Shown: in pieces, positions 11,268-63,161 of the stretch
Numbering within the stretch: position 1 is the first letter of the stretch
How the letters are laid out: each line of letters starts with the position of its first letter
Virus record (IMG/VR): IMGVR_UViG_3300043570_002257
Coordinates: 56,227-120,226 of that record
Strand: one strand, 5' to 3'
Origin: a virus
Length of the DNA: 64,000 bases
Notes under the pieces: generated by a model
Database searches by the model: none
Told to the model about the DNA's origin: nothing
What the model saw: only the letters and a program-made list of their open reading frames with translations
Position numbers and translations under genes: made by a program

Positions 11268-14200
11268 TTAGTTTAATTTAGCTTTAAGTTCATCAATTTC
11301 TTTTTGTTGTTCTTTTATTGCTTCTATCAGAACACCTACTATGTTACCATATTTTACACCATACTCATCAATGTCAGAAGCATAAGTAACAGCTTCTGGT
11401 AATACCTCATTCATTTCTTGAGCAATTACCCCCACCTGTCTAACCTTTTCTTCATCATCTATTCTGGTATAGAATACACCTCTCATTTCTTTTACTTTAG
11501 AAATTGCACTGTCAATTGTAACAATATCAGTTTTCTTTCTTACGTCAGAATATGCTACGATGTCACCTGTTGAATATATTGCACCAGTTACATACATACC
11601 ATATAGTATTGAAGTAGTTGTACCATTGATGCCCATACAAGAATTACCTAAATTATAATATAAATACCATTTAGTACTTGCTTGTCTATATATACCACCA
11701 TTACCAGCAGCATCATACATTATTCCATGTACACCACTATTATTATCGTATATACCACTGTAACCACCTTTAGTACCTTTTATTGCTAGTTGAGTATAGT
11801 TACTTATATCATTGGCTTGTAAGTGAGCACCATAATATGATGGCCAGTATAAACCAGTACTAGCATTAAATTGAATCCATGTATCTGCTTGATAATATGT
11901 ATTACCATTTTTACCTACAAATGTAGTATTAGCATATGTTCCTAATGTACCTGCATTAGTTGCATAAGCAACAGATTGACTTGCAATATTTCCACTAGAA
12001 ATTGCGTATACCCATGTTTCAAAAGTACCAGTACCTTTATAACTTCTAAACCATAATTGATTGTCATAATAACTCATAGCTATTTGAAAACCATGGTAGT
12101 TAGCTTGATTACTATGTCTTACGTTAATAGAGTTATACCAAGTAGCACTAGGCCAGTTAGTACCACCACCACCATTTTCATAAAATCCACTATTAACTTG
12201 TGAGTTAGCATTTGAATGAGTTGCAATTAAAGAAGGACTTGTCATCCAATCAGGTCTTGATGTTATGTTACCCCACGCAACTGAACCAGAACTGCCTCCA
12301 ATACTTAAACCAGATGCTGTTCCTGTTAATCCTGTTCCTGCTCCACTAAAAGATGCTGCTGTTACGTTTCCATCTGCTTGATTAATAGTAACCTTAACAC
12401 TATTGTCTCCCCAAAATTCAATGAGATTACTTAATTGGTTATGTTTAATACCCCACTTGTTTGTATCACTTCCTAATGAATCTGAAAATATCCAAGTATC
12501 TCCTGCAGCATCATCTGTACGACCTGCTCCTGATTGTAATAATCCATTTGCATAGGTGTTATCAATACCTCTAAGTTTAATACTCCAAATACCACTTGCT
12601 CCACTTCCTGTAAGAGAAGGTGCGTAAGCTGTATAGTTTGCACTATTAAGTAAAACTCTCCATGGATTAAATATAGCTTCATCACCATTTCTAGTTCTGA
12701 ATGCAAGACCAGTTCCTCCACCACCATAAGATGCATTAAATTGTAATCCATATCCACTAGCAGCAAAATGTGTTAAAGGGCCTGTATATGGTGCATTATT
12801 ACTATAAGTAAAGCCAGATTTATTTCCAGCAATAGTATTAGCATTATAACCTGGAGAATTTACCCACCCATCGTAATTAAATATTTCAAGTGGTTTACTA
12901 GTCACATTTGCCCATGCAACAGCATCTGCAGTGCCTGCAGTGCCTGCAGTAGTAGCATAATTTACAGATTGAGATCCAATATTTGCTGAGGTTATGACAG
13001 CACTTCCGTTTGCATACAATGTGCCACCAATAGCAGCATAAGTATTTCCAGAAGTATCTATTCTAAATCTTTCTGATCCCCATGTACCATCAGTTCCATT
13101 TGGAGCTAATCCCATGTTTTGAGTAACACGGAATTGGTCATCATAATAACAATAACCTATATTCCAACGTGTACTGCTATACCCACTACTAAACATAATA
13201 GATGGTCTGTCAGAACCAAGATTACTTGCAATATGAAATCTTGCAATAATTCCATAAGAGTGGTCTCCATTAGAAGCTTCAAAACTATAAGGAATATAAT
13301 TACCTCCTGCTGATTGTGTTGTTAACCATTTACCTGATTGACCATGAGCTACTGTATTAACAGTAGTTTTATGATATTCAGAACCATCAGTATGATATTC
13401 ATGACCTGCTCCATTAGCAGGAGCTTGAGCTATATAAGTATGACCATATACCCAGTTGTCATTACCTGCAGTTGTAATACCATTTGGAAAGAATGCAGAA
13501 TCATTAGTTCCCCACGCATTTCCAGGACTTACATATCCACCTTTTGCGTAGATAACATCGGTAAAAGGGTTTACATAAACTGCACTTGTTCCATAAACAT
13601 AGTTACCATCACCCCATAGCAACTGATAAGTTGAATTAGAATTATTATTATAGTTAATTGTTACTTGTGAAGCTGTACCAGCAACACTTGCACTTCCTGC
13701 AATATTTGCATAAGCCACACGTACACCTGCTGGAGTAGCTGGAGAAACTTTAAGTTCCCAATAACTACCACCATCATAGTTCATGTACATATAATATGGA
13801 GCAGTTCCACCATAAGTATATGGAGCATCAGAAGCATATAATCTAGTTGAGTTTAATGCATATGTTGCATTTCCTGTAATGTTTATAGCCCAAGTTCCAC
13901 TTACTCCTGTACCATCTGCAAATGCTAATTTCTTTGACCATGTGATAGCATCCACACTACCACCACCAACTGTTGCGTTAGCACTACTATAATCTAGAGC
14001 TAAGAAACCATGAGTATCAGCTCCTGCCCATGCAATCATAGTACCATAAGAATTCTGACCTGGTAATGCAGTTGGTGTAGTATTCCATCTTGCTGTTGAT
14101 ATTTGATAACCACTAGTAGAAGCACCAAATAATGTAGTTCTAAAGTTACTTGTTGTAAGAGCATCTATATTAGCAGAAGCTGCAAGTCTATCTCTTATTA

Positions 14201-17200
14201 ACCCAGTATTTGATGTTATACTTGATACTGATGCAGCATTACCAGCGTTAGAAGCGTATGCAGCACTGTTAGCAGTAACAGCATTACCTGTAATTGAAAT
14301 ACCCCATGTTCCAGAAGCACCAGTACCAGTTAATGTTGGTGCGTATGAATTGTAGTTACCAGCATGTAAAACTTGATTGCCTCCTTGTTGTAACGTACCA
14401 CTTGTTACGTTAACTGTTGAACCACTAATGCGTAAATTAGAATTAGATGCTTCTAAATTTAAAGTACCATAAACAGCTGTAGCTCTATTGTAAGCAATAA
14501 TATAAGCTTCACCACCTGATACTCCAATCTCAGCAGCTAAACCTTCTGCAGCATTTCCATTATACCATCCAGTAAAACGACCCATACCACTTGTAGATAT
14601 ATCTCCACTAAAACTTCTTTGTGATGTTGTAGCTGAATTACCAGTGATGCTAATACCCCAAGTGCCTGTTGCTCCTGATCCTGTTAATGAAGGAGAATAA
14701 GAAGTATAATTTACTGAATCTAAAACAGTTCTCCAAGCTTGCCATGTACCATTATTTTTACCTCTTACAGCAATTTGTCCTGTTCTATAATCACCAAATA
14801 TTTGATGTTGCCAAGGTGTACTATGTCTTTGAGAATATAATGCACCATCTGTTTGACCCAATAATGCTACGCCTGTATAACTTATACCATTACTATCAAT
14901 TGTGTCAGGTGCTGTTGCAGAATTGGATCCTGTATTTCTAAATCCCCAATCATCAATTGTATCAGCATTTCCTGCGTTTGTTGCATATGTTGCAGTAGCA
15001 GCGTTACCTGTTGTACTAATACCCCATGTACCACTATTATAAATATAAGGAGTTTCATTAGAATGTCTTAGTCTACCACCATATATATAAACAGTTCCAC
15101 CACCATTACCAAAATACATATCACCACCTGAATAATGATTAAAGTATATGTCATATCCAGTTGCACCTCTTGAATCTAAGTGTAAGTTACCATTAGAAGT
15201 TCTAATTCTAGCGTATGTTGTATCTGTTGACCAACCACCAAGATGCAACGCAGCAGCAGCATTGTATGTGCCAGCTCCATAAAGTATTAAGGCAGTAGCA
15301 TCACCATTTACAATTGTGTTTGTAACGTTTGTGTACACACCATTTGTAACTGTACCTGCGTTACCAGAAACACTTATACCCCATGTTCCACTTGCACCTG
15401 TTCCAGTAAGAGTGGGAGAGTAAGAGTTATAATTAGCAGCAGTTAAAGCAATACTATCATTTACATATAATACACCAGAACTATTAATATACATTTTTCT
15501 AGTCCATGCATCACTATCTGTTTGACCTGCATAATAAAAAGCCAAAGTACCATCATTATGAATAAGCCAGTTACAATCTTGATTTGTACTTCTTAATACA
15601 ATTGATGGATACTCTCCACGAATTGTAAATTTTTCTGGATTAGTTCCACCCCAGTTAGCATTGATTTGTAACTTACCTGTTATTGTACCACCTGAAAGTG
15701 GTAAAAAAGAAGTAGATGTATAAGCATTAGATCCAAGACCTAAAAAGGCTTGAACTTTAGCAGCTGTTGCAGAACGGTGATAATTATCTCCAAACTTTGC
15801 TATGATATGAGTTATTGCTCCTGTACTTACATCATCTGTTGTGTTTATGTAAGAATAAAATCCATAATATCCATAAATATGACCACTAGGATCTCTATAT
15901 ACTATTGTACTTCCTGTTGCAGGTACTGCTGGATTATTGTATCCTGAAATAGAACCTGTTGTAGCAGATGAACCTGTAACATTAATAGCCCATGTTCCTG
16001 AATTTGTAACAACTTGATCACCATGCCAATAAAGAATACCATCCATTCTCATTTCTAAGAACTTACCAAGAATACCACTAATGTGAAATGCTATACCTGT
16101 TGTAGTTTCATCATAAGATTCAGTCCAAAGAGCAGCAGTAGTATAGTTACCATTAGTCTGAGACTTTCTACTTTTTAGTGTTGAAGTAAATACTCCACTT
16201 GTTCCTATTAAAGCACCTGTAAGGGTTCCTCCTGCTAAAGGAAGTTTTGTAGGATCTGATGCTGTAACTGTAAATGATCTACTAGCTGATAAATCTTGTG
16301 TTACACCGTTTATTGTTAATGTTCTTGAAGGTGGAACATAAGCTGTTGAATCAACAGTTCCATCTGCTTTTAAGAATTGAGAAGATGTACCACCTGATTT
16401 AATTATTAAATTAGCTGTAAATGAACCTGCAATTTGCATGTCACCAGAAGTAGAGTTAAGTGCAGCAATAGGAGCAAAAGATTGTCTTCCCCATGTGAAT
16501 CCTCTACCTGTATCTTCATTATTCATTTGCATTTTGATAGAGTAGTCAGTAACTGGTCCATAGTAGTACAATGAAGATGCACCCATACTTATTTTATATG
16601 CGTCACTTCCACTCCAGAATCTAAATCCATAACCATTACCAGCAGTAGCATCATAAAAATTATTTACATTACTACCATTTGGTGCTGAACCTGCTGTAGT
16701 TGCATAGCTTACAGATTGTGAACCAATGTTACCAGAATGTATAAACTCACGCCAAGTAAACCAACCAGCTTCTGTTCTTCTTCTAAAAAATGCCGTATCT
16801 GAAGCATAATCAAAAGCTAATTGAGTTCTTCTACTATAACTATTACCAACATTAATTGTTCTAATGTTTGGAGAAGATAAAGGTGGTGTGCCACTTGGGA
16901 TAGGGTCAAATGTTACAAAACATTCTCCGTAATCTGAATCTATATTTCCAGTTAAAGTGGCTAATGTTTTTACAAATGAACTTGAATCATAACCATCTAA
17001 AGTATCTGCTTGACCAGCATAGCTTGAGTAATATGAATTACCTGTAATGCTAATACCCCACGTTCCTGACGCTCCTGTACCTGTTAAAGTTGGAGAATAA
17101 GAGTTGTAGTTAGCATCAGAAAGCATTGTAGCCCAACTTGCAGCTCCACTAATATTGGTAGATCTATATAATAATGGACCACCAATTAGTGAACCAAGTT

Positions 17201-17819
17201 GAAGATTATATCTACTATTAGCATCAGTAGAACTCCATGTAGGAAAAGAAATTAATCCAAAATCACCTGCAGGAACATTAACTCCATTAAAGAAAGTATA
17301 AGAACCTGCTCTCCATATACTATTAGCATTAGCTGTTCCAATGTAATTGTTAGCAAAATATTGAGCAGTACCACTAACATCAATCCCCCAAGTCCCACTT
17401 GCATTAGTACCTGTTAGGGTAGGTGCGTAATTATTATAATTTGCATCTGTTAATACCTCTGCCCAAGATGTCCATACTCCAGCATTAGTCCTACCCCTAA
17501 CAGCCATTCTTTTAGTAGGGTCAGTATCTAACCAAATTTGTGCACCATAAACAGAAGTAGTACCTGACCATGTCATACCTAAAATATGACCATCATTACC
17601 TCCAGGCCCTAATGCTAAAGTGTGTATAAATGAATGACCTGATGCAGGCATTGCACTGTCTGCAGCAACAACAGTTCCTCCATTTGGACTTAATAAAGAT
17701 GTAGCAGAACCTGTTGTAGATCCTGATGTATTGGCATAGTTAACTGACTGAGAAGCAATGTTTCCAGCATGTATGGCAGCATATCCACCTATTGTTGTAC
17801 CAAGTAATAAAATAGCCAT
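11268..17819 (-). CDS. Giant repetitive tail fibre with C-terminal S74-type chaperone
   Basis: A 2183-aa trimeric-fibre type protein. The N-terminus (LLLGTTIGGYAAIHAGNI) is typical of phage fibre repeats. The shaft repeats N-Y-x2-Y-x-P-x-L-T-G followed by A-S-G-T-W-G-I-S-I-T-G-N at six places, plus several half copies, and repeats G-N-I-x-S-Q-S-V-x-Y-A-T four times. The last 95 residues are an intramolecular chaperone of the endosialidase type (peptidase S74): S2091-D-V-R-K-K2096 supplies the Ser and Lys of the self-cleaving dyad, followed by V-G-V-I-A-Q-E-M-N-E-V-L-P-E and a terminal coiled coil. The domain would release itself after trimerisation. One base separates this gene from the next fibre. 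Confidence 0.88.
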   Translation of the reverse strand: MAILLLGTTIGGYAAIHAGNIASQSVNYANTSGSTTGSATSLLSPNGGTVVAADSAMPASGHSFIHTLALGPGGNDGHILGMTWSGTTSVYGAQIWLDTDPTKRMAVRGRTNAGVWTSWAEVLTDANYNNYAPTLTGTNASGTWGIDVSGTAQYFANNYIGTANANSIWRAGSYTFFNGVNVPAGDFGLISFPTWSSTDANSRYNLQLGSLIGGPLLYRSTNISGAASWATMLSDANYNSYSPTLTGTGASGTWGISITGNSYYSSYAGQADTLDGYDSSSFVKTLATLTGNIDSDYGECFVTFDPIPSGTPPLSSPNIRTINVGNSYSRRTQLAFDYASDTAFFRRRTEAGWFTWREFIHSGNIGSQSVSYATTAGSAPNGSNVNNFYDATAGNGYGFRFWSGSDAYKISMGASSLYYYGPVTDYSIKMQMNNEDTGRGFTWGRQSFAPIAALNSTSGDMQIAGSFTANLIIKSGGTSSQFLKADGTVDSTAYVPPSRTLTINGVTQDLSASRSFTVTASDPTKLPLAGGTLTGALIGTSGVFTSTLKSRKSQTNGNYTTAALWTESYDETTTGIAFHISGILGKFLEMRMDGILYWHGDQVVTNSGTWAINVTGSSATTGSISGYNNPAVPATGSTIVYRDPSGHIYGYYGFYSYINTTDDVSTGAITHIIAKFGDNYHRSATAAKVQAFLGLGSNAYTSTSFLPLSGGTITGKLQINANWGGTNPEKFTIRGEYPSIVLRSTNQDCNWLIHNDGTLAFYYAGQTDSDAWTRKMYINSSGVLYVNDSIALTAANYNSYSPTLTGTGASGTWGISVSGNAGTVTNGVYTNVTNTIVNGDATALILYGAGTYNAAAALHLGGWSTDTTYARIRTSNGNLHLDSRGATGYDIYFNHYSGGDMYFGNGGGTVYIYGGRLRHSNETPYIYNSGTWGISTTGNAATATYATNAGNADTIDDWGFRNTGSNSATAPDTIDSNGISYTGVALLGQTDGALYSQRHSTPWQHQIFGDYRTGQIAVRGKNNGTWQAWRTVLDSVNYTSYSPSLTGSGATGTWGISITGNSATTSQRSFSGDISTSGMGRFTGWYNGNAAEGLAAEIGVSGGEAYIIAYNRATAVYGTLNLEASNSNLRISGSTVNVTSGTLQQGGNQVLHAGNYNSYAPTLTGTGASGTWGISITGNAVTANSAAYASNAGNAASVSSITSNTGLIRDRLAASANIDALTTSNFRTTLFGASTSGYQISTARWNTTPTALPGQNSYGTMIAWAGADTHGFLALDYSSANATVGGGSVDAITWSKKLAFADGTGVSGTWAINITGNATYALNSTRLYASDAPYTYGGTAPYYMYMNYDGGSYWELKVSPATPAGVRVAYANIAGSASVAGTASQVTINYNNNSNSTYQLLWGDGNYVYGTSAVYVNPFTDVIYAKGGYVSPGNAWGTNDSAFFPNGITTAGNDNWVYGHTYIAQAPANGAGHEYHTDGSEYHKTTVNTVAHGQSGKWLTTQSAGGNYIPYSFEASNGDHSYGIIARFHIASNLGSDRPSIMFSSGYSSTRWNIGYCYYDDQFRVTQNMGLAPNGTDGTWGSERFRIDTSGNTYAAIGGTLYANGSAVITSANIGSQSVNYATTAGTAGTADAVAWANVTSKPLEIFNYDGWVNSPGYNANTIAGNKSGFTYSNNAPYTGPLTHFAASGYGLQFNASYGGGGTGLAFRTRNGDEAIFNPWRVLLNSANYTAYAPSLTGSGASGIWSIKLRGIDNTYANGLLQSGAGRTDDAAGDTWIFSDSLGSDTNKWGIKHNQLSNLIEFWGDNSVKVTINQADGNVTAASFSGAGTGLTGTASGLSIGGSSGSVAWGNITSRPDWMTSPSLIATHSNANSQVNSGFYENGGGGTNWPSATWYNSINVRHSNQANYHGFQIAMSYYDNQLWFRSYKGTGTFETWVYAISSGNIASQSVAYATNAGTLGTYANTTFVGKNGNTYYQADTWIQFNASTGLYWPSYYGAHLQANDISNYTQLAIKGTKGGYSGIYDNNSGVHGIMYDAAGNGGIYRQASTKWYLYYNLGNSCMGINGTTTSILYGMYVTGAIYSTGDIVAYSDVRKKTDIVTIDSAISKVKEMRGVFYTRIDDEEKVRQVGVIAQEMNEVLPEAVTYASDIDEYGVKYGNIVGVLIEAIKEQQKEIDELKAKLN
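12570..17440 (-). repeat. Repeated shaft modules in the giant fibre gene
   Basis: DNA coding for the N-Y-x2-Y-x-P-x-L-T-G / S-G-T-W-G-I unit recurs near 17380, 17050, 15370, 14650, 14300 and 12590. Copies share most bases of a stretch of about 65 bp (for example the core complementary to ATACCCCATGTTCC). Spacing is irregular because of inserted unique segments, so these are dispersed intragenic repeats rather than a tandem array. Confidence 0.75.
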
Positions 17820-17820
17820 A

Positions 17821-20800
17821 TTATTTAGTTTCTAGTTTTTTAATTTTATCTGATAATTCTTTTACTGCACCTATAAGTACAGTTGTTAAACGTGAGTAGT
17901 TAACACCTATGGCTTCTCCATTCTCATCGTATTGTACAAACTCTGGATATGTTTCAGCAACCTCTTCTGCAATAAGTCCTAACTCTTTAATAGTAGAACC
18001 AATTTTATTGTAAGCTACTGGTCTCAAATCTAATACTTTTTCTAAATTTCCAGTAATTGTGTTTATGTTTTCTTTTAACTTAAGAGAAGATGATTCTGTA
18101 AGTGCTCCACCAATAGTTAGATTACCTAAATAATCTAATGTAAGTCTTTGTAAATGAGTTCCACCTGGTTGACGCACAGCAATTCCAAATACACCTTCAT
18201 AATTACTAGCACCTTTATATGCTCTTATTGATGCTCTATGATGATTTCCATCAGTATCAACAGTTGCAAATCCCATTTGTGCTCTTTGTCCACTTGTAGT
18301 TGATCTCAAAAGAAGAGCGTCAACAAAATCATCTAATAGAGGACTATGGTCAATTACTAGACCATAGTTATTACTAGTTGTAATTACATCACCAGCCTTA
18401 GAAACTTTACCTGCAATACTACTAGTTACTGTAGTTGCAAAGTTTGGATCATCTCCCAATGCTGCTGCTAATTCATTTAATGTATCTAAAGCACCAGGTG
18501 CAGCATCTATTAAGTTATTAATCTGAGTAGTCACATAAGCTGTAGTAGCATATCCTGCAGAAGCATGATTGCCCCAACCATATGCAGTATTCCATTGTGT
18601 AGAATTACCAGCTACTGTAGAAATTGTTCCAGTAATAGTAACATCACCTGAATTAGTTAATGAAAGTTTTCTAGTTCCATTCCACTGAATAACAAAGTCA
18701 GCTCCAGCAGCACCTCCTGAACGAGTCATACCAAGTCTCCAATGATCACTATACCATCCATATTCATGACCAGAAACTAAGTCATCTGTAGTATATGTAG
18801 ATGGTATATATACTGCAACTTCTCTTCCTTCACTACCTGTTATGGTAATTGGAACTGAAGTTGTAGCACCTCTTCCTGTAACTGATGCTAAAGTATCTGT
18901 GTATGTTGTTAAATATGCCTGAGATTGTACCCACGATTGAGTTGCAACTGCTGCACTGTTAAGTGTTAGAGTAGTAAAGTTTGTTTGTGATGTAGTTGCA
19001 GAATTACCAGTAATATGTGTAGCAAGAGCTTTATAAGGAACTGTTTGTATTAATGTACAATCAGATAAATCTGCGTCTGTCCAAGTCCATCCTGTGGTAT
19101 AAGAATCAGCAGAGTTAGAAGAGAATACACTTTCTACATACATTTTTGCCCAATATCCAGGATCAGGTAAATGAATAATTACAAAACCATCTGAACTTTT
19201 AGCAAGAGTAATTATAGGAGACCATGCACCATTAGAAATAGCATTTCTACTGTAGAACTCACTATTGTAATAATGCCAACCAATAGATAAAGAAACCATT
19301 TGAGAAGCTCCATATCTAAATCCTTTAATGTTTACAGTAAAATCTGAACCTCCATAATTCCAAGGAATATTTGTTTTTATCTTAAATTGAGTAGGAGTAA
19401 CTCCTGTATTCAAATCAAGAATACCCATTGAAAGTTTTTTTGCACCAACAGACGCAACACCTGTAACTCCTAACTTTTCACTTATATTAAATGAACCTGT
19501 AAGATCAGTTATATTTGTATTAATACGTAGTCTTTCAACAGATGCAGTTTTAAATATAATTGTGTTAGGATTAGTTGCTCCACCTCCTGCTACATTTATA
19601 GAAGAAACATATCCATTTGTTGATCCTGCAAAAACAGTTCCTGTAGATGCATCAGCTCCACTACCCAATATACTATTGTAAGGATAAACACCACCACTAA
19701 AAGAACTTGCTGTTACTGTACTTAAAAAAGTAGCAGAGTACCAAGGATAAGTTGCGTTACCTAAATTTTGTGCTGAATAAGTTCCTACGCCATTTGTTGA
19801 AATAATAACGCCTGCACCAAATCCAAAACCAATATCATTACCATTAGTAGCGTTATCATAAATACCACCACTTGTTAATATTGTTCTGTTGTTTGCTGTG
19901 AAAGATGTAGCGTTTACAGTTGAACTGAATGTCGCTGCACCTGTTGAAGCAATTCTTAATAATTCTGCACCATTATTGCCATTTCTAATTTGTAAAAACC
20001 CAACACCATTTTCAGATAGTTTACCTATTGAGTAATCTGTACCGGGGCTTGAGTTAAAAAATACACCACCAAATGAAACATTAGCCCCATCTGCATTAGT
20101 ATCTCTTATATTCATCAATGCACCACTATTAACAGGAGGAGTACCAATAGCATAAAACTGAGTATTTGATACAACTTGACCTGTAAACCTACCAGTTCCG
20201 TTTACATCTAACAAATATGAACCACTTGCAGTTGTACCCAAAAGTAATTGACCACTTGCAGTCAAAGTCATTCTTTGTGTAAATGTTACTGCATTACCCG
20301 CAGTTCCACTTGGAGCGTTTGACCACTGATGTTCGCCTAAATATTGAGAGTATCTTGTAGAAGCCAATCCTGTATTTTTATACAAAGGACTTCCTGCCCA
20401 ATTATAATAATAATTTAAACCAACTGATATTGAATTGTAAAGATTTGTTGCATTTTCAGTCCATATAATACCATTAGCACCTATTTCTAAAACACGAGAA
20501 TCAGAATAAGCGTTTAATGGTGTAACTCCTAAACCAATTGTGGTTGCGTTTTCTTGTAACAAAGAATTTCCTAAAGCACTTGCTCCTGTAAACTTTGGTA
20601 AGTAATTAGTAGTTCCCGTACCTGTAATAGGATTTGTTAAAGTTGATGTACTACCATCAGCCATTAAATATTGGGTAGATGTACCTCCACTTTTAATTAA
20701 TGATACTGCTGTAAATGTTCCACTTGATTCCCAATTTCCATACAATGAGCCACCATAAGAGCCACCATAATTAACTCTAACAGACCATCCACCTAAATTA

Positions 20801-23493
20801 TTTAATAACCCAAATCCATCTCCATCCCAATAAACATATCCTTTTGTTGTCCCTTCATATCCTTTTTTAAATAATAAAGCACCACCAGTAGCTGCTGCTG
20901 ATGATGTAACATTCCAATATGAAGCATTAGATGCGTAAAAGTTTGTATCGTAGAAATTACTTTTTAATCCTGTTGTTGCAGAAGTAAGTTCAAAATTACC
21001 ACCTGATGTGACAGTTGAACCAAATTCTGCTATACCTGAACCATATAAGTTAATAGCATTAACAGTACCCGCAGCATTACTAATCCTTATTGCAGGTAAA
21101 CTATTACTTCCATTTTGAATATATAAACCATAACCAGTAGCAGATGTGTTTTGAAGATAACCTACAAAATAACCTGCATTTGATTTAGTTGCATTAAATA
21201 CCTCTCCACTTTGTAATCCTGCATTTGAAAAACTTGTTGCGGTAACTGAAGATGAGAATGTAGCTGCACCTGATGGACCAATTGCCATACCATTTGAAGC
21301 AGTATTGCAACCAAAATAGGCAAATGTACCATAAGCATCTATAACAGCTGTTCCATTTGTGTTTTGTCCAATAGAAAAAGTTCCTATATTATATACTGTA
21401 CCAGTTCTTGTATGGTTTCCTGTTAAAGGAAGATATAAACCAGCATGATTACCCCAGCCAAAAGCTGTATCCCAATTTGCATTATTATATCCTGATACAG
21501 AAATTGTAAGTTCTTGAGGACTTGCACTACCATTAGCTGTAATACTAATACCACTTCCTGATACAAAATTAACTGTATCTAATCCTACAGCTGTAAGTTT
21601 TTGTACTCCATCAACTTTCCAATATTTGAATGTTGAATTCATTGCAACTTTTGCAATTCCTGCAGAAGGATTTGTTACATCAAAACCTGAATCTTCATCA
21701 AATTGTAAAATATTTATTCCACTATAACTTTCTGTTGCAGTTCCAGCAATATTTACTTGCTGTACAGAAATTGTTGGAGATGGAATTTGAGAAATTGCTG
21801 TAGTTACATATGTTTGAGTAGCATAAGTGTTTGAATCTATGCTACCATCTGCTTTTAAAAATTGTACTGAAGTTCCTCCTGCTTTAACAAAAGAGTTACC
21901 TGTAATATTGTATGCACGCAAATCTGCATATGCAAAAGATCCATGTGATGTATCTATAAAAGGTGATGCATCTGGTTCAGGTGTATATCCTTTAAAGAAT
22001 TTCCATGTGTTATCTGTTGCATCTCTAAATAAACCAGTGTGTGCGTATGTACCATCATTGTAACCACCTGCAAAACCAAGATCTGGATTTACTGATGTTT
22101 TTGCTCTAGCAGTTCCACCAGAAACATAAAGACCAACTACACCAAATGCAATTGTAAATGAGTTTGTAGATACTGCAGTAATAGTTTGATTTGTCAAGTT
22201 GTAAACACTTGGGTCTACACCTGAAATTGTAACAAGCATACCTGCAGTATAGTTATGTGATTCCAGTGTAGTATATACTACTGTGGATCCATTACCTACA
22301 ACGTTTGTAATTGTTGTTTGAATACCATTGTTCAGATAAATCATATTATCTGAAACTGATAAGTTTTGGGCGTTTACAATTGTGCTTGTACCACCAATTG
22401 TTAAGTTGCCTGCAATGTTAATGTCACCACCAACATATAAATTTTTTGTAATACCAACACCTCCATTAACAACAACTGCTCCACTTGAAACTGAAGTTGA
22501 TTGGGTGGTGTCAGAAAATGTTTTAATACCAGCAATACTTTCGTTGCCAGTTGTATGAACTACATTTGCATCATTTGCTGCAGTGTATCCTAAAAGAGTT
22601 GCAACTGATTTTGGTTTGTATAAACTTGTAGATGATTCATATGCTATTACATAATTGTTTTGAACGCCATTTTCTACATAATCATGTAGTTCTTTCATTT
22701 CAAAACCATTCTGTACTTTTACAAAGATCTCACCATTGTTTGTGTTTACTCTTGTAACAACACCAATAAATACTAAGTGTGCAGGAGCAGAAGGTTTGTT
22801 TAGTAAACCATAAATTAAATTTCCACCAGTACCTAACCAAACAGGATCACCAGCGTTTGCACCATTTGTATTTAAACCTGCAAGTAGACCTTCTGTCAAA
22901 ACTCTTGCCATACCGTTTGTAGAAACAGTAGACATCAAAAGACCTATTGTCTTAGAAGATGTAGATTCAGAAGCATTAGATGCTAAACCAACAATCATGT
23001 TAGTTCCATCTGCACCTGTTACATAAACAGCTTGGCCTTTATTTATTGCCACACCTGCTTTTACTTCATGACTTAAAGAATCAGAAGAAACAAAACTTGG
23101 AAATGTTTGATATGCACCAGTACCATCTATGTACTGAGAAACTGTTCCAGTAGGATTGTTGTATTTTGCATCAAGAGCTGCCTGTAAATCTGTTTGAGTA
23201 GAAAGTGTTCCAGTAATGGAACCCCATGTGATAGATGATACACTAATTGTACCATCAATACCCACAGATAATCCTGAACCTATCTTAACACCACCCAATA
23301 CAGATGCAGACGCAATACTTAATGTAATCGTTACATCACCAGTACCTGGATTTACACCAGTTGAAGATAATGTCAAGCCCGTTCCAGCAATGACTTTTGT
23401 AATCAAAGCTGAACCTGAAGTAGTAGTGTTTATATCACTTCTTATAATGTTCAGAGGTCTTATCTGAGACTTCCTAACTAGAGTTATTGACAT
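17821..23493 (-). CDS. Giant tail fibre with S74-type chaperone domain
   Basis: An 1890-aa fibre protein. The first 250 residues are Gly/Thr/Ser-rich beta repeats (for example GTGLTLSSTGVNPGTGDVTITL). Residues about 330-420 hold a segment (NLYVGGDINIAGNLTIGGTST) typical of phage fibre shafts. G-G-T-S-x-Q-F/Y-L-x-A-D-G occurs twice and also in the downstream 2183-aa fibre, so the two genes share modules. The C-terminal 91 residues are a chaperone-of-endosialidase domain: S1802 and K1807 (ESSSLKLKENI) match the Ser-Lys dyad, then L-R-P-V-A-Y, L-G-L-I-A-E-E-V and a terminal coiled coil. Ser-Lys cleavage would free the mature fibre. It lies in the minus-strand fibre operon. Confidence 0.87.
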   Translation of the reverse strand: MSITLVRKSQIRPLNIIRSDINTTTSGSALITKVIAGTGLTLSSTGVNPGTGDVTITLSIASASVLGGVKIGSGLSVGIDGTISVSSITWGSITGTLSTQTDLQAALDAKYNNPTGTVSQYIDGTGAYQTFPSFVSSDSLSHEVKAGVAINKGQAVYVTGADGTNMIVGLASNASESTSSKTIGLLMSTVSTNGMARVLTEGLLAGLNTNGANAGDPVWLGTGGNLIYGLLNKPSAPAHLVFIGVVTRVNTNNGEIFVKVQNGFEMKELHDYVENGVQNNYVIAYESSTSLYKPKSVATLLGYTAANDANVVHTTGNESIAGIKTFSDTTQSTSVSSGAVVVNGGVGITKNLYVGGDINIAGNLTIGGTSTIVNAQNLSVSDNMIYLNNGIQTTITNVVGNGSTVVYTTLESHNYTAGMLVTISGVDPSVYNLTNQTITAVSTNSFTIAFGVVGLYVSGGTARAKTSVNPDLGFAGGYNDGTYAHTGLFRDATDNTWKFFKGYTPEPDASPFIDTSHGSFAYADLRAYNITGNSFVKAGGTSVQFLKADGSIDSNTYATQTYVTTAISQIPSPTISVQQVNIAGTATESYSGINILQFDEDSGFDVTNPSAGIAKVAMNSTFKYWKVDGVQKLTAVGLDTVNFVSGSGISITANGSASPQELTISVSGYNNANWDTAFGWGNHAGLYLPLTGNHTRTGTVYNIGTFSIGQNTNGTAVIDAYGTFAYFGCNTASNGMAIGPSGAATFSSSVTATSFSNAGLQSGEVFNATKSNAGYFVGYLQNTSATGYGLYIQNGSNSLPAIRISNAAGTVNAINLYGSGIAEFGSTVTSGGNFELTSATTGLKSNFYDTNFYASNASYWNVTSSAAATGGALLFKKGYEGTTKGYVYWDGDGFGLLNNLGGWSVRVNYGGSYGGSLYGNWESSGTFTAVSLIKSGGTSTQYLMADGSTSTLTNPITGTGTTNYLPKFTGASALGNSLLQENATTIGLGVTPLNAYSDSRVLEIGANGIIWTENATNLYNSISVGLNYYYNWAGSPLYKNTGLASTRYSQYLGEHQWSNAPSGTAGNAVTFTQRMTLTASGQLLLGTTASGSYLLDVNGTGRFTGQVVSNTQFYAIGTPPVNSGALMNIRDTNADGANVSFGGVFFNSSPGTDYSIGKLSENGVGFLQIRNGNNGAELLRIASTGAATFSSTVNATSFTANNRTILTSGGIYDNATNGNDIGFGFGAGVIISTNGVGTYSAQNLGNATYPWYSATFLSTVTASSFSGGVYPYNSILGSGADASTGTVFAGSTNGYVSSINVAGGGATNPNTIIFKTASVERLRINTNITDLTGSFNISEKLGVTGVASVGAKKLSMGILDLNTGVTPTQFKIKTNIPWNYGGSDFTVNIKGFRYGASQMVSLSIGWHYYNSEFYSRNAISNGAWSPIITLAKSSDGFVIIHLPDPGYWAKMYVESVFSSNSADSYTTGWTWTDADLSDCTLIQTVPYKALATHITGNSATTSQTNFTTLTLNSAAVATQSWVQSQAYLTTYTDTLASVTGRGATTSVPITITGSEGREVAVYIPSTYTTDDLVSGHEYGWYSDHWRLGMTRSGGAAGADFVIQWNGTRKLSLTNSGDVTITGTISTVAGNSTQWNTAYGWGNHASAGYATTAYVTTQINNLIDAAPGALDTLNELAAALGDDPNFATTVTSSIAGKVSKAGDVITTSNNYGLVIDHSPLLDDFVDALLLRSTTSGQRAQMGFATVDTDGNHHRASIRAYKGASNYEGVFGIAVRQPGGTHLQRLTLDYLGNLTIGGALTESSSLKLKENINTITGNLEKVLDLRPVAYNKIGSTIKELGLIAEEVAETYPEFVQYDENGEAIGVNYSRLTTVLIGAVKELSDKIKKLETK

Positions 23494-56500: not shown

Positions 56501-57174
56501 GGTGATGTCCTAGTGCCAAGACGTTCATTTATATAACTAACATAGTCACCTCTTAACTTTCTATACTTATCTTTATTATCCTTACCTTCAACTAACGCAA
56601 TGTTATATTTTACATCTTTTTCATAATTATCATCACCATAAACTTCTTTCTCTTTTTCTAATCCACTTGGCAAACTATTATGAAAATTCATAAGTTTATT
56701 TTTCAAGTTAGTACCTGTATTAAAAGCACTTAAACTATCACTATAATTTTTAAGTCTTGGATCATTACGGTCAGTTACAGGAATAGAAACTCTTCCTCCT
56801 TTTTGTGCTTTAGCATTAATCTTACGTTCTTGCTCTAACATTTCTTTTGTAGGTTTTTTACCAGAACCTTTATTATCTCTAATGTTATCCCACAATCCTC
56901 TCTTAGAATAAGAACCATCTGCACGTTTAATCATCTCACCACCTTTTTCCATTGGTGTTTCAACAACATAGTCACCACCAAATAGATATTCTCCACCTGG
57001 CATCATCATTTGTGAGTTACCTAAATTATCAACTCCTCTCACAGGAAAGTCTACACCTTTCATTGTAATCCTATTTGAAGGAATTACATTAACAGGATTA
57101 TTAACATCAGGGCTATTGTTTTTATAACCCTGTGTGCTAATAAATTTCATCAATATTTTGTTAGCATCTTTCAT
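53599..57174 (-). CDS. 1191-aa virion-associated protein with conserved basic viral modules
   Basis: A mosaic protein. Residues about 410-477 hold D-A-V-R-H-x2-S-S-A-A and G-R-E-M-D-F-Y-N-N-K-I-G, a conserved unit with His, Arg and Asp that may be enzymatic but is not assigned. A Gln-rich linker (520-535) leads to a UBA-like helix set, and 578-625 is highly acidic. At about 630-682, K-K-K-G-T-F-K-A-Q-A-T-R-M-G-M and later V-K-K-A-N-F-A-K-N match a short basic module found in many large viruses. At about 715-785, S-T-R-P-G-K-K-W-M-V-L and P-F-S-P-L-Y-W-H-K-R-F match another. Short G-G-E/Y-G-G repeats recur throughout. It starts at a TAATG overlap with the 1995-aa gene. Role unknown; nucleic-acid binding is plausible. 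Confidence 0.65.
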   Translation of the reverse strand: MKDANKILMKFISTQGYKNNSPDVNNPVNVIPSNRITMKGVDFPVRGVDNLGNSQMMMPGGEYLFGGDYVVETPMEKGGEMIKRADGSYSKRGLWDNIRDNKGSGKKPTKEMLEQERKINAKAQKGGRVSIPVTDRNDPRLKNYSDSLSAFNTGTNLKNKLMNFHNSLPSGLEKEKEVYGDDNYEKDVKYNIALVEGKDNKDKYRKLRGDYVSYINERLGTRTSPMIDYTRQVGTYSPNAGGSSEWVYNFKKPEQPYYLERSNMDTIPSRGISNIDANDNASLKPMSVDSNQYTPDNKVYVMRNPDGTESIIDNVEAHSMIKKGVSGIYSRKVDNIKRENISNPYDESMAQNYQTGGSTGEADLMTEYARRINKNVRQFGDKLLYAPFVNKAADMAEAKGFGFGEDNEGPLDAVRHVSSAASVASNLPVPSFMNEILPGSEQKIREYGSRALGALYEMYHNNPEGREMDFYNNKIGAQIGSIPGLTDEQRLKLINNALMNKQLQIDNMKRIKAKQEGGEMQQQNMQPQQQAGPDINDALGEISMMLENGTSEEEIMDMMIAGGISQEEASSFIESAKNDVEESDIEEEDADLESDDIEDNDLETVDGEVEDDFDDMMSILDDDAEMKYGGIKINPKKKGTFKAQATRMGMSVQGAATHILSNKEEYSPAMVKKANFAKNFAKELGGQMYEMASGGTVPDRYKNMGFTKVGVKKQSTRPGKKWMVLAKKDDKYKVVHGGWKGMKDFSQHGSEKRQDRFWDRMGGRDSAKAKDPFSPLYWHKRFGTWAEGGEPLNAKGMLPGDIIFPDASNTNRNSMYDYENYRVGDQRTTKTESNTIGALENNAWNRGLAKANVLGDPRSMVWALPNKGLLGKIKGIAGATAGLSGAILGYEKLFADPKTTEYIVNPGTKESGTMQDVTNKRKEEPNSFMKKYSQPSMYQEAPIDEMRRKNEMLPSGPIGPGYFDSNVPLGKSIDNIARYGGSMKEYQVGGQTPLTFDEWMAENNRGLMGEEGRDMNDYQQYLSSFQPAVATSVGGTEVAQTPGGAAQPGDVSAIAKQSTQTVKGDRVGMMVANNALAGLGMANEVLGAADYQKEYEQRLRETGNTMNRYNPQNAINPFGNYTLNAGPASNFALVANTPIQDFGTKMSSARYGGLIPFIPATRQYNEGGEFYADEDEIKRILAMGGEIEYLD

Positions 57175-60100
57175 TATCTTGAACTATTAAGATGTTTTGA
57201 GTTTGTTAGTTTTAATATCATTTTTTTGTCACCACTTACATTCTTGCGTAAGATTACTTTGTTTCCATAATGTCTAAACTTTTTATGTTCAGTTGGTGTT
57301 TTAAAGTAATTTACATAATCTGGATTTATTGTTCTTTCATAACCAGAACATTTTGTAATCCACATTGGTATATCATTTCCTGTAAACTCACCTCTATCCT
57401 TTGTAACATCCCAAAACTGATTAAATCTAAACTTGTTTTCTTCTTTAGAAAAAAGTATGTTAATACCATTTGCTGTTGCTTGTGGGTAATTAACCAACTC
57501 TAATGGATTGTTCTTGCCTTTAAGTTTAAGTTTTAATAAACCAGACATTTGTTCTGAGTTATGTATAATTGCTCTGTCAAAGTTTTCATCAAGAATATGA
57601 TTAAAATCTTTACCATCATTAAAGAACTTATATACGTCTAGTGTATACTCTATGCTTCTAAGTGTTGTTACACTGTTAGGAGTTGTCACAGGATACTCTA
57701 CTTCCCATGGATAATCTACACCATAGTAATTAGCAAAACTATCCCAGCGATCATTGTGTTTCCAAAAACCATTACCTTTAATTGTAAAGAAGTGTTCATG
57801 TGAAGGCATCAATAAACTAGGTTTCCAATCATGGAAACTTATCCATAACTTTTGTTTTGGATCATAACTTATTGTCCAACCACATGGTGTAAAACACTTA
57901 GGGTCATCATATTCACATGGACATTTAATTAATTCAGGTTGAACTACAATAATCTCTAATTCACAAATGTTTGTGAGATCATCTTTAGTACTTATTAATT
58001 GATAAGTAGTATTTATTACAGGTGATACAGTTATTGAATCTGTTGCGTTTACAGTAATATTATTTGGCATAAGCACAACAGAATCTGGTCCACCATCAAC
58101 AGACCATGTTAATGTTATTGATTCACCTAAATTTATTGTGTATGGTGAAGATTCAAATGTACAACTCAGATCTACTACTGGGCATGGTACATTTAAAATT
58201 GTATCAGATATGATAGTATTTACAATACCAGAAAGAGATGTACTTTTTGTACCTCCTGTAGTATCTGCATAAATATTATGTACTATATTTATTGCAAATG
58301 GAATAATTGGTAGGTCATTACTAACACCTACACCTGTAGCAATTGGAAATATTTTTATTCCAGCTGCTGCAGCATTGTCTGCAATTACTTGAACTCTTGC
58401 AAGATCTACACCAGGATCAAACACATCATCTGTGCCAGAAGGTCTAGCATCTGTAACCATTATGATTACTTTAATTGCTTCTGGTCTAAAAGTTCCTGCA
58501 TCACCATCAATTGCCATTTGTATACCAACATCTGTTGGTTCTGGTTCCATCTCACCATTTCCTATAGTAACAGCTTGCAATGCAGCATTAAATGATGTAA
58601 TGTTATTTAAAGACATTGTATGTCTTACAACATTAAGTACAATGTTTGATTGATCTACTGTTATTAAACCAAACCTATAATTATTGTTAGATTTTATTGC
58701 AGCATCAGCAGCAATATTTACAATACTTTGTTTAATATTTGTCAATACACCACCCATGCTTCCTGTAATATCAATTACAAAAACTAAATCTAATGGCGCT
58801 ATACAAGGTGTAACTGGTTCCTCTGCCATCAACATAATTGGAGCTGGCGTAGAAAATTCAGGTATAGTGCCTTGTAATGTAGCAGGTCCAGTTTCACCAC
58901 AACTATAAAAAGGAGAAACTAAAATTTGGTAATGTGCTTCGTTATTTAATGTTTCTGTAAAAGGAAAAGAACCTCTTACATAATTTATTACAGAAGGAAA
59001 AGTATAGGTATTTGTAGGATAGTTTACTGCAGTACCAAGCATCAAAATAGGATAAGTCCACGCTAAAGAACCATCAAGATCTAAAACTCCTTTTCTTATT
59101 TGAATACCATATTGTTGTGGATTTTCTTGATTACTTGCTAATGTAGGATGTTCCCAGTTTATTGTCAATGTTCCATCAGGATTAAGTCCTGTGGTTGATA
59201 TTGTAGTAACTGGTACAGGTACACACTCAGTAGGATCTCCTCCACCACCTGTGGTTCCACATGGATAGTAAGGTACACCTGAAGGATCATCAAAATGTAA
59301 ATCTGATCTTAAAGGAATATAATCTTTCTTTGTAAAGTATACTAACTCATACTGAGGATCATAAATTGCTTGTACTCCAATACCTGCTACAGGATTATCA
59401 TACAATGGATAATCTGGATATTGACGTAATAATTCAGAAGGTAAGTTTTCAGCAAACCAGAACTTTAAACCATTTCTAGATATCTCATTAAGACTACCTG
59501 CGTAATGCATAATCTTACCTGATTTCTGAGAAGCATAAAATAAACCATGTGGTGTATTTACTGCAGATCTTGAAGAAATACAAGCACCATATTCTAAAGC
59601 ATCATCTGCATTAGTAATACTTTGCATATTTTGTTGGAATAATCCACCATCACCAATGGTAATTTTTACACCACCTTTAGTTTGTAACTGATCAACCCCA
59701 ACAAATTGTGTAGGTTCATCATTCTCAAATAAGATAATAGCACCAGTACCATTTAAAGATTTTATTGTACTGATTTTTCCTCCAAAATCTTTATAGTTAA
59801 GAGGTAAGAAGTTTCTCCAGTTGTCTCGTTTAAGACCTGACTGCTGTTGGAGAGAGTACACTCCACGTTTAGGGTAGTACTCAAAACATGTGCTATAGAT
59901 AGCTGGGTCATAGTCCCTAGGTAAAATTTGTCCCCAGGTTGCAAAGTTGTTGAATAATTTTGATGTGCTGAGTGATAAGTCATATTTGTTATAAATTGGT
60001 TTAGTTATTAAATCTGATCTAAACATTGTAGCCTCATCATTAAATGAGTTACCATATACATCATAGAACTTTTGAAAATCTTCTTCACCATAATCTCTAA

Positions 60101-63100
60101 ATGCCATATTAAGTTCAGACTCAGTATAGAAATCTCTAATACCATTATGGAATAAATATGCAAAACAGTTTCGTAATGTCAAATAAGGTTCAGTACCAGG
60201 TCTGTCTAATCTATGAAAATCACTAGGTGTTGTAAAATCTAACTGTGGTATAATAGGAATGTTCAATATTTTTTTAAATGATAAATCTACATCAAAATCA
60301 GTTGCATCAAATTTATCATAGTCAATCCAATACCTTGGTACAGGTCCATTTACATAATTTCTATAATTATACTCAGTAGTATTTGGCATATCAAACATCC
60401 ATGTATTAAAAAACATGTATGGATTTTTTTCAGTATATCTATTAATATAGATGTCACCACCAAATATTGTTGATGTTGAATAAGTAGTTGTTAACTGAGG
60501 TTCTGTTGAGTATATACAAGAATCTGTTGGCAGTTGAACTATTGACGTTAATTGACCGTATTGATTTTCAAAATCTACTTTTAATGCACCATAGTAAGCT
60601 ACAGTATTTGTTATTACAGAATCTTTAGTAGGATTTGAACGATCAATTCCTCCATCTCTAACTCTATGCTTTGTGTTATCTATTATAGATACAACATTTG
60701 GTAAATCAGATGTTAACTTAACAGCAACATATTTATTTCTATTAAGATTATTAATTCTATATGTTGCATCTAAATCATGAATTCCTGAACCAATATATTT
60801 AGTTCCTGAATCTGCAACTTTTCTTCTAAAAGCATTAGGTAATCCAGAAGGTACATCAGAATTTGATACATTAGAGTATGAGTCATAAAATCCATGACTA
60901 TTATACTGAAGCATGTATTGTCTTTCCTTACCAAGTTTTCTTAAAATATCTAAAGTTTGATCTATGCCTTGCCCTAAATAGTATACAGCTGTTGTTGCCA
61001 TTACTAGAAGTCCTGCAACTGCAGCTGTAGAACCTATAATATTTGAATATGCTCCTGCTATTAAATCAGGTACTATGGTTGCTGGTCCTGTATCTCTTGA
61101 AGAAGTAGTACCTTTTTCATAACCAGCTCCAAATGGTGCAGCCCAAAAAGTGTCGTGTCCTGTTGTGGTAGTTTTACCAACAGCAGAAACTACTGCAATA
61201 CCCAATCCTACAATACCTGCTAATATAAAAGCAGCATCTGATAAGATTACATGTTTTGGATGTTTATGAGGATATTCATATTTACCTGTTACTTTACCTC
61301 TTTCTTCTGTATAAATTTTAATATAGTTAGAACCAACATAAGGTTTAACAAAGTTTGTTTCTACACCATGAAAAGAAAAATAATTTTTTTTATGAGTATC
61401 AAGTTTAGATCCTGATTCAACTCCAGATTGAGTTCCTCTACCTTCATCAAGTATAGAATAGTCATTACTTAAAAAGTTATCAGGTCTAATGTCATTATAA
61501 GGATAGTTTTGAAACAATCCTTTTCTTTGAGTATTTCCTTGAATGTCAAACTCAAACATGTTGTTAAATAATCCTTTAGCAACAATAGTTCTATTTCCTT
61601 CTCTTGATCCTCTTAATATTTCATATCCTACAACATCTTTTATTGGAGTAAGTGTTTCATCTACTGGATGTTGAACATTAGAAAATTCTACACCTAAATT
61701 ATAAATATACTCTCCACCTTGACTGTGAATATGAATAGTTTCATTAGAAGGCATCTTGTGATGTCTAATTGGTTTACCACATAATGTTCCCCAAACATCT
61801 GGTTTATCATCAGGATATCTTTCTGTTGATTCCCAATACGCCATATCACCTTTAGCAATGATAGCACCACCATCTTTGGTAGTACCAGATGCTACATATT
61901 TTGTTGCAGTATCATACACCTGCCATACTTCAGTTTCTGAAGGATTAATAACGTCAGATGTTGATACAGGATTTGTATCTATTCCTGTAGATATTCTACC
62001 AGGAATATGAAAAGATGCACTTCTAGCACCAGTCTTATATACCCATCTAATAAAAAATGCATATACTTCATCACGCATATAACCTGTAACATTACCTCCA
62101 TTGTGATAATAGTCTGAAGGAAATTGTGCAGCAACCCACTGCACTTTTATATCATTTGCTTGTTTTTGATAATTAAAGTATGGTTGTGTAGTTACTCCTG
62201 TTCTGATAAGATAGTTATTAACAGAGTGCATTTTCTCACTCTTTTCATATACTATTGACTTCAAAGGTATTAATGCAAGTTCAACAGTTTCTAAACTTTG
62301 ATTATATAAATCAAGATGTACTGATGTTTGTCTAGTTGAATAGTAACCTATTTTTTTTGCTATTGTTTGTTGATTAATAACTGCAATAACAACAAGTTCA
62401 TACTCATCATAATCCTTATCTAAGTTGCTTACAATAATATCTAAAGAACCACCTATTCCAGTGTGGTCCCATAATGCTTGTGGTTGACTTGGTATTGAAT
62501 AGTCTGTAAGTCTTATTCCATTTTCTGAATAAGCTACTACAGCCATATAACTACCATTATTCAATTGACCAGATCCTTGTGCTTTTTTTACATCCACACA
62601 TGGTTGAGTTACAAGAGGATGTAATCTTAATGCATCACAATCTAAATCAGTTGTATATTCTGGAATAAAACAATCAGGATCTTGAGACAAGTTATTACCT
62701 GTTGTCTTGTAAGGAATTCTATCTAAGTTTAAAGTTCTATCAGGATTTAAATTATCTTGAAAGAATGTAGAAAAAGTGCAGTCATAATTTTCTTTTGTAA
62801 CTGCAGTAATCAAATTAGTTTTTTTAAAACCAAGACATGGATCATTTATAACTACTGTATATGAACAATCTCTTTCATCAAAAATACCAATCTCAGAAGA
62901 AACATTATTTGTAGAAAATATAACCCATGAAGTTTTAGATTTATGAGATATTCCAATTACATCATAAGTTGCGTTTACACAAAACTTATTAGAGGGTTCG
63001 TTACCAATAGAACCAGTCTCACCATAGTGAGCATTGTTTATGGCATTAACAGCATTAGTCCAAAGACCTTCTGATATGTAAATATCAGTATAGTCTTTAA

Positions 63101-63161
63101 CCATACCTTTATTAAAGGCATTAGTTTTGGCAGCACTTGTATTTGTAAAATTCTCGCTCAT
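57174..63161 (-). CDS. 1995-aa tail or 'stabilization'-type protein with von Willebrand A domain
   Basis: The first 130 residues (N-A-F-N-K-G-M-V-K-D-Y-T-D, A-I-N-N-A-H-Y-G-E-T-G-S-I-G-N-E) match the conserved start of crAss-like tail 'stabilization' proteins as I know them. Two hydrophobic segments at about 640-665 and 705-730 could insert in a membrane. A fibronectin-like region lies at about 1310-1400. Residues about 1455-1640 form a vWA domain with an intact MIDAS: D1464-I-T1466-G-S1468, a Thr near 1540 (E-P-T-D), and D1571 (V-T-D-A). An Ig-like segment follows (about 1660-1730), and the rest returns to tail-type sequence. vWA domains bind protein or glycan ligands through a metal ion, so surface adhesion is the likely use. 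A TAATG overlap links it to its neighbour. Confidence 0.75.
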   Translation of the reverse strand: MSENFTNTSAAKTNAFNKGMVKDYTDIYISEGLWTNAVNAINNAHYGETGSIGNEPSNKFCVNATYDVIGISHKSKTSWVIFSTNNVSSEIGIFDERDCSYTVVINDPCLGFKKTNLITAVTKENYDCTFSTFFQDNLNPDRTLNLDRIPYKTTGNNLSQDPDCFIPEYTTDLDCDALRLHPLVTQPCVDVKKAQGSGQLNNGSYMAVVAYSENGIRLTDYSIPSQPQALWDHTGIGGSLDIIVSNLDKDYDEYELVVIAVINQQTIAKKIGYYSTRQTSVHLDLYNQSLETVELALIPLKSIVYEKSEKMHSVNNYLIRTGVTTQPYFNYQKQANDIKVQWVAAQFPSDYYHNGGNVTGYMRDEVYAFFIRWVYKTGARSASFHIPGRISTGIDTNPVSTSDVINPSETEVWQVYDTATKYVASGTTKDGGAIIAKGDMAYWESTERYPDDKPDVWGTLCGKPIRHHKMPSNETIHIHSQGGEYIYNLGVEFSNVQHPVDETLTPIKDVVGYEILRGSREGNRTIVAKGLFNNMFEFDIQGNTQRKGLFQNYPYNDIRPDNFLSNDYSILDEGRGTQSGVESGSKLDTHKKNYFSFHGVETNFVKPYVGSNYIKIYTEERGKVTGKYEYPHKHPKHVILSDAAFILAGIVGLGIAVVSAVGKTTTTGHDTFWAAPFGAGYEKGTTSSRDTGPATIVPDLIAGAYSNIIGSTAAVAGLLVMATTAVYYLGQGIDQTLDILRKLGKERQYMLQYNSHGFYDSYSNVSNSDVPSGLPNAFRRKVADSGTKYIGSGIHDLDATYRINNLNRNKYVAVKLTSDLPNVVSIIDNTKHRVRDGGIDRSNPTKDSVITNTVAYYGALKVDFENQYGQLTSIVQLPTDSCIYSTEPQLTTTYSTSTIFGGDIYINRYTEKNPYMFFNTWMFDMPNTTEYNYRNYVNGPVPRYWIDYDKFDATDFDVDLSFKKILNIPIIPQLDFTTPSDFHRLDRPGTEPYLTLRNCFAYLFHNGIRDFYTESELNMAFRDYGEEDFQKFYDVYGNSFNDEATMFRSDLITKPIYNKYDLSLSTSKLFNNFATWGQILPRDYDPAIYSTCFEYYPKRGVYSLQQQSGLKRDNWRNFLPLNYKDFGGKISTIKSLNGTGAIILFENDEPTQFVGVDQLQTKGGVKITIGDGGLFQQNMQSITNADDALEYGACISSRSAVNTPHGLFYASQKSGKIMHYAGSLNEISRNGLKFWFAENLPSELLRQYPDYPLYDNPVAGIGVQAIYDPQYELVYFTKKDYIPLRSDLHFDDPSGVPYYPCGTTGGGGDPTECVPVPVTTISTTGLNPDGTLTINWEHPTLASNQENPQQYGIQIRKGVLDLDGSLAWTYPILMLGTAVNYPTNTYTFPSVINYVRGSFPFTETLNNEAHYQILVSPFYSCGETGPATLQGTIPEFSTPAPIMLMAEEPVTPCIAPLDLVFVIDITGSMGGVLTNIKQSIVNIAADAAIKSNNNYRFGLITVDQSNIVLNVVRHTMSLNNITSFNAALQAVTIGNGEMEPEPTDVGIQMAIDGDAGTFRPEAIKVIIMVTDARPSGTDDVFDPGVDLARVQVIADNAAAAGIKIFPIATGVGVSNDLPIIPFAINIVHNIYADTTGGTKSTSLSGIVNTIISDTILNVPCPVVDLSCTFESSPYTINLGESITLTWSVDGGPDSVVLMPNNITVNATDSITVSPVINTTYQLISTKDDLTNICELEIIVVQPELIKCPCEYDDPKCFTPCGWTISYDPKQKLWISFHDWKPSLLMPSHEHFFTIKGNGFWKHNDRWDSFANYYGVDYPWEVEYPVTTPNSVTTLRSIEYTLDVYKFFNDGKDFNHILDENFDRAIIHNSEQMSGLLKLKLKGKNNPLELVNYPQATANGINILFSKEENKFRFNQFWDVTKDRGEFTGNDIPMWITKCSGYERTINPDYVNYFKTPTEHKKFRHYGNKVILRKNVSGDKKMILKLTNSKHLNSSR

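Follow-up and report, generated by a model that had tools for sequence, protein, structure and literature searches.

The tail muzzle of a crAss-like virus carries an adhesion-type domain in one of its loops. The gene lies in the window, which is the whole stretch of 64,000 nucleotides analysed here, from IMG/VR record IMGVR_UViG_3300043570_002257. Its protein holds a von Willebrand A (vWA) domain with a complete metal-dependent adhesion site (MIDAS), as part of a cassette that comparison with relatives places as an insertion into the muzzle core. Our reading, to which we give odds of about two to one, is that the virus binds its host with the cassette, a metal-dependent adhesion head that an Ig stalk carries at the tip of the tail.

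The crAss-like phages are among the most abundant viruses, few have been cultured, and how they recognise their hosts is largely open. MIDAS-bearing vWA domains are the type of adhesion domain that human cells use in integrins. The analysis suggests that integrin-type MIDAS domains are also used at the tail tip of a virus. It singles out two loops in a protein of known structure as candidate sites for the exchange of adhesion domains, and makes the type of cassette a readable candidate marker of host range in metagenomes.

Insertions in muzzles have been described before, and so have adhesins built on vWA domains. What appears to be new is their combination, with heads being exchanged at two equivalent turns of a propeller. 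No description of a muzzle vWA cassette was found in the full-text literature searched, in which subscription papers are thinly covered. The only paper there to name both Crassvirales and Willebrand is a review of armed phages, in which each term occurs once.

The muzzle protein and its cassette

The features of the gene are as follows, with residue numbers for the encoded protein. L numbers are our labels for matching loci elsewhere.

57174..63161, (-): whole gene, crassvirus-type tail muzzle, 1995 aa, homologous to PhicrAss001 gp44 and the Fpv1 muzzle
59262..63161, (-): muzzle core, N-terminal part, residues 1-1300, from alignment with cassette-less homologues
61167..61253, (-): hydrophobic segment 1, residues 637-665, Kyte-Doolittle scan
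60981..61040, (-): hydrophobic segment 2, residues 708-727, Kyte-Doolittle scan
57927..59261, (-): inserted cassette, site 1, residues 1301-1745, absent in L006-L009 and L011-L015, present in L002-L005
58812..59240, (-): fibronectin-III-like beta-sandwich, residues ~1308-1450, with Cys1313/Cys1421, from the model; L002 and L005 lack the whole module
58194..58799, (-): vWA domain, residues ~1455-1656, from Pfam PF00092, AlphaFold2 and Foldseek
58758..58772, (-): MIDAS motif 1, D1464-I-T-G-S1468
58533..58535, (-): MIDAS Thr1543, in EPEPTD
58449..58451, (-): MIDAS Asp1571, in VTDARP
57942..58181, (-): Ig-like beta-sandwich, residues ~1661-1740, with Cys1667/Cys1733, from model and alignment; duplicated in L002
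57177..57926, (-): muzzle core, C-terminal part, residues 1746-1995, from alignment with empty homologues, crAss_MUZ_C in Fpv1 and the model
57771..57779, (-): site 2, residues 1795-1797, empty here, with vWA-type inserts in other phages

The PHROG class of the protein is virion structural. Its homologues include structural proteins of the Cellulophaga phages phi17:2 and phi4:1, the 'muzzle protein' of csAssE-Sib, and proteins of Leptolyngbya phage Lbo-JY46 and of Flavobacterium phages. In blastp, residues 1071-1297 directly match residues 1010-1221 of PhicrAss001 gp44 (E 3e-5), and the match to the Fpv1 muzzle is stronger (E 4e-18). The Fpv1 homologue in turn matches the Pfam families crAss_MUZ (PF25731, E 2e-34) and crAss_MUZ_C (PF25729, E 6e-14). 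Neither family matches the window protein directly at E<=1, so its membership is drawn from the Fpv1 bridge and from structure. The modelled C-terminal part (residues 858-1558) of an empty homologue, L060, has 7qok_A (E 3.8e-14) and 7qol_P (E 5.1e-14) as its top PDB matches, both from cryo-EM of the PhicrAss001 tail muzzle gp44. The same virus record encodes homologues of the PhicrAss001 major capsid protein and portal, and in L005 virion structural genes lie directly upstream of the muzzle gene. In the model, residues 1746-1995 form the end of a propeller and a domain of the ring-joining type. By homology and predicted fold the protein is a nozzle-like crassvirus tail muzzle, with a propeller and ring-joining fold.

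The preliminary description had called it a tail 'stabilization' protein with two membrane-like helices. The former is an older name of this hallmark crAss gene, whose structural identity, by homology and fold match, is the tail muzzle. The latter were located as the two hydrophobic segments in the list. At least one such segment occurs in 66 of 79 muzzle homologues; PhicrAss001 gp44 and csAssE-Sib have none. Possibly these central segments insert into a membrane during infection.

The vWA domain is the sole clear Pfam domain in the protein (VWA PF00092, residues 1458-1620, E 5e-13). Its score of 50.1 bits, against a cut-off of 23.8, is far beyond chance. All five MIDAS residues are present (D1464, T1466, S1468, T1543 and D1571). 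They are retained in the four to five nearest vWA copies, with Thr in place of S1468 in one. The loops of the site are mostly invariant, at 22 of 34 positions versus 42 of 138 elsewhere in the domain.

An AlphaFold2 model of residues 1290-1760, built from ten sequences, has a Rossmann-like vWA at ~1457-1656, in which strands and helices alternate and pLDDT is mostly 65-93. Beta-sandwiches lie on either side of it, at ~1320-1432 and ~1666-1740. The best PDB matches of this model, found with Foldseek, are integrin beta headpieces (E 4.5e-12). Over the model as a whole, TM-scores are low (~0.3); this means that the match supports the fold of the domain, not the arrangement of the modules. Every module has one cysteine pair (1313/1421, 1453/1660 and 1667/1733), and each pair co-occurs with its module. 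Cys1301 and Cys1747/1749 are at the base of the cassette. The pairs within the modules probably form disulfides.

A full MIDAS in a Rossmann-like vWA domain, flanked by fibronectin- and Ig-like segments, had been proposed from the sequence alone. The site is indeed complete, with T1543 as the downstream Thr, and AlphaFold2 and Foldseek agree on the fold. The flanks fare less well: the model makes them beta-sandwiches with a cysteine pair each, but no fibronectin type III or Ig family profile in Pfam matches them.

Insertion at two exchangeable sites

Nine homologues (L006-L009 and L011-L015) are without the cassette; ~7-20 residues bridge window residues ~1300 to ~1742. Before the gap they are 45-70% identical to the window protein. 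In the closest of them the identity is 69-70% on both sides of the gap, and residues ~1301-1741 are cleanly missing. By this alignment, residues ~1301-1745 are an insertion into the muzzle core. The preliminary description had suspected as much, and the boundary that it gave, about 1300-1740, agrees with the aligned gap of 1300-1741. That the region is a core-fold part of all homologues is ruled out by these close relatives. Carriers among the relatives are L002-L005 and L010, the last of which ends at a contig edge. An artefact or chimeric contig is ruled out as well, given the presence of the cassette in the independent contigs L002-L005.

The fibronectin-III-like (FN3-like) module is missing in L002 and L005, and L002 has two Ig-like modules. 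This makes the cassette internally modular. A search for a close cellular donor of the vWA domain gave nothing better than 35% identity to a Chloroflexaceae MAG, and a search of a phage collection at the DNA level gave no match. L054 and L055 are also cassette-less at this site, and at least L011/L054 retains the CG...CPC motif of occupied sites. It is possibly the scar of a lost cassette.

The wider comparison covers the best 80 of 104 muzzle homologues, some of them nearly identical. Most of these have little or nothing at site 1, and about 19 have an insert of ~140-440 aa there. A second site, at window residue 1795, is empty in most of the same best 80 of 104 and holds 143-804 aa in about 18. 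Site 1 is modelled as the turn between strands C and D of one propeller blade, and site 2 as the C-D turn of the next. The two sites are then equivalent, and should face the same side.

Pfam VWA is found at E<=0.01 in 14 of the 28 inserts scanned. The vWA inserts of site 2 form a second class (IDIVIAVDxSGST...TD), in which 13 of 13 listed members have DxSxS and most have the later Thr and Asp. This second class is located at site 1 in L062 and L063. Another head at site 1, beta-rich and weakly PA14-like, is found in L064-L067, L071, L079 and L092. Its PA14 identity is a lead only, with L066 alone at Pfam E 0.07 and no PDB profile match. In L118-L120, with muzzles of 2733-2889 aa, both sites are occupied. 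Site 1 is a recurrent exchange point for inserted domains, and site 2 is its equivalent one blade on. Related viruses have a different domain or none at site 1, which makes it look like a plug-in site for host-binding parts.

With no insert in most homologues and widely varying insert sizes, it might be thought that the propeller turns merely tolerate insertions, and that the cassette is a near-neutral passenger. We consider this very improbable, as the MIDAS residues are kept across divergent copies and at two sites, and the ratio of dN to dS (omega) in the vWA domain is well below 1.

A quick tree of the core, made with the insert columns left out, with some long branches and site states assigned by hand, needs 14 changes of state at site 1 and 4 at site 2. 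L061, which has a vWA head, nests inside the clade of L064-L067, which have the other beta-rich head (supports 96-100). The cores are 83-87% identical, the heads 16-20%. L061 is the clearest case of head exchange.

The vWA head also changes fast. Between the window and L005, dN is 0.279 in the vWA domain versus 0.022 and 0.019 in the flanks, while dS is 0.72 versus 0.64 and 0.58. Among close relatives, amino-acid change in the domain thus runs at ~13 times the rate of the core on either side of it, while the two are similar in synonymous divergence. Since dS in the domain is near that of the flanks, this fast change comes without signs of distant import, and recent import is not favoured as the cause of the divergence between the window and L005/L004. 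Omega of the vWA domain is about 0.4, which is below 1, so positive selection is not proven. The FN3-like module that the window shares with L010 has a dS of 0.30, versus 0.65-1.13 in the core, and may have been exchanged.

A candidate adhesion head at the tail tip

The muzzle of PhicrAss001 is a hexamer at the end of the tail, and it is for gp44 alone that the hexamer is known; the crass domain has been proposed as the part that meets the cell, and muzzles differ in length where the crass and IG2 regions have taken up insertions (PMC10172136).

In the mechanism that we propose, a cassette of three modules (FN3-like, vWA and Ig-like) is inserted in the C-D turn of one muzzle blade of a crAss-like podophage. 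It would be displayed on the surface of the virion and play a part in adsorption. The vWA head would bind a ligand on the host surface, probably an acidic group, through a divalent metal in the intact MIDAS. The Ig-like module would be the stalk. By analogy with PhicrAss001, the hexamer would give each virion about six copies. The C-D turns of the two neighbouring blades would be plug-in sites at which lineages gain, lose and exchange adhesion heads, and such an exchange would change the surface that the phage recognises.

Infection does not generally require the cassette, which many homologues do without. First recognition is probably done by the tail fibres, which counts against the cassette as the receptor-binding head. 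The window also encodes two adjoining giant proteins of 2183 and 1890 aa (11268-17819 and 17821-23493, both (-)), each with a C-terminal S74 endosialidase-type chaperone. They are probably tail fibres or spikes.

Modules of the vWA, Ig and FN3 types generally bind matrix. The cassette might then attach the virion to material around the host, like capsule, extracellular matrix, mucus or particles, and not to a specific infection receptor. In line with this, the site-2 vWA profile finds its best PDB relative, a weak one, in a mussel thread matrix protein (E 0.005). We still regard this as unlikely: a place at the tail tip beside the ejection gate, and not on the head, fits host recognition better, and so do fast, exchangeable heads.

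The cassette could also be a structural module that touches neighbouring virion proteins, such as tail fibres or the docking hub, and makes the tip more stable. In crassvirus tails, disulfides between proteins are abundant, and fibres surround the muzzle (PMC10172136). Muzzles of 69% identity do without it however, and change ~13 times faster than the core is unexpected for an assembly interface, which makes this role improbable.

Host binding by the head may extend further. The vWA domain would be an integrin-like switch, in which metal-dependent ligand binding causes a conformational change that, through the Ig stalk in its propeller turn, helps to open the muzzle gate. This is a doubtful addition. 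If true, receptor specificity and the ejection trigger would be combined in one exchangeable tail-tip plug-in.

Known systems and other vWA proteins

Like the window protein, PhicrAss001 gp44 has the homologous propeller and C-terminal part and the same position in the structural gene block, and its relatives vary by insertions (PMC10172136). It differs in that neither a vWA nor any other large domain occupies these turns. Where insertions have been described in its relatives, they fall within the crass and IG2 domains rather than the C-D turns of the last blades.

Adhesins with a MIDAS-bearing vWA, like the integrin I and beta-I domains, pilus-tip adhesins and Bdellovibrio Bd0875, share the fold and the full site. 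They also share Ig-type flanking modules and disulfide-type cysteines. Bd0875 is a precedent from bacteria: it acts between Bdellovibrio and its prey, and entry into the prey requires the aspartate of its MIDAS (PMC11003981). Unlike these, the muzzle vWA belongs to the tail tip of a virus, which presumably has six copies of it, and it is swapped against other domains at a fixed loop.

Among cultured relatives, the muzzles of phi17:2/phi4:1 and of FpV4/Fpv3 have inserts at site 1 that are ~26% identical between the two groups. The muzzles of FpV4-1.1 to 1.3 and Fpv3 are identical to that of FpV4, and Fpv1 is 73% identical after site 1 but has no such segment. Where the first vWA strand would be, the FpV4 insert has NIVIQFDRSGS, a hydrophobic strand with DRSGS; the phi17:2 insert has no canonical DxSxS. 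Pfam vWA matches neither the FpV4 nor the phi17:2/phi4:1 inserts, and against the site-2 vWA family profile the Flavobacterium/Cellulophaga insert reaches E 0.001 with a low hhalign probability (20%). That these inserts are vWA domains is suggestive only. The phi4:1 muzzle homologue with a site-1 insert, gp042, is annotated as a virion structural protein from MS/MS.

Tailed phages also have AAA+/vWA pairs of the CobS/CobT type, which are like the muzzle in placing a MIDAS-bearing vWA in a phage genome (PMC8651126). They are unlike it in being of an intracellular enzyme type, in separate genes, without Ig modules and outside the virion. The present virus record has what looks by sequence like such a pair. 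There, an AAA_5 ATPase gene adjoins one for a protein of 627 aa whose C-terminal domain is a vWA (DESGS), outside the window at G000 C1:32571-35112 (loci L165 and L167). It could be argued from this pair that the muzzle vWA too partners an AAA+ ATPase, like the vWA proteins of CobS/CobT or MoxR pairs. The idea is scarcely credible. The pair is a separate gene neighbourhood ~80 kb away and has its own vWA partner, which weakens the case. The muzzle vWA sits in a structural protein with Ig/FN3-like flanks, and no AAA+ partner gene adjoins the muzzle gene.

Further vWA proteins were met at L026-L049, with the match near position 7001 of those loci. They are lipoprotein-like and ~420 aa long, have repeats rich in cysteine, and carry a vWA (DISGS) at the C-terminus. 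They were rejected as muzzles, being a different protein family. Their vWA is about 28-31% identical to that of the muzzle, and the family occurs in more than 20 other viral contigs.
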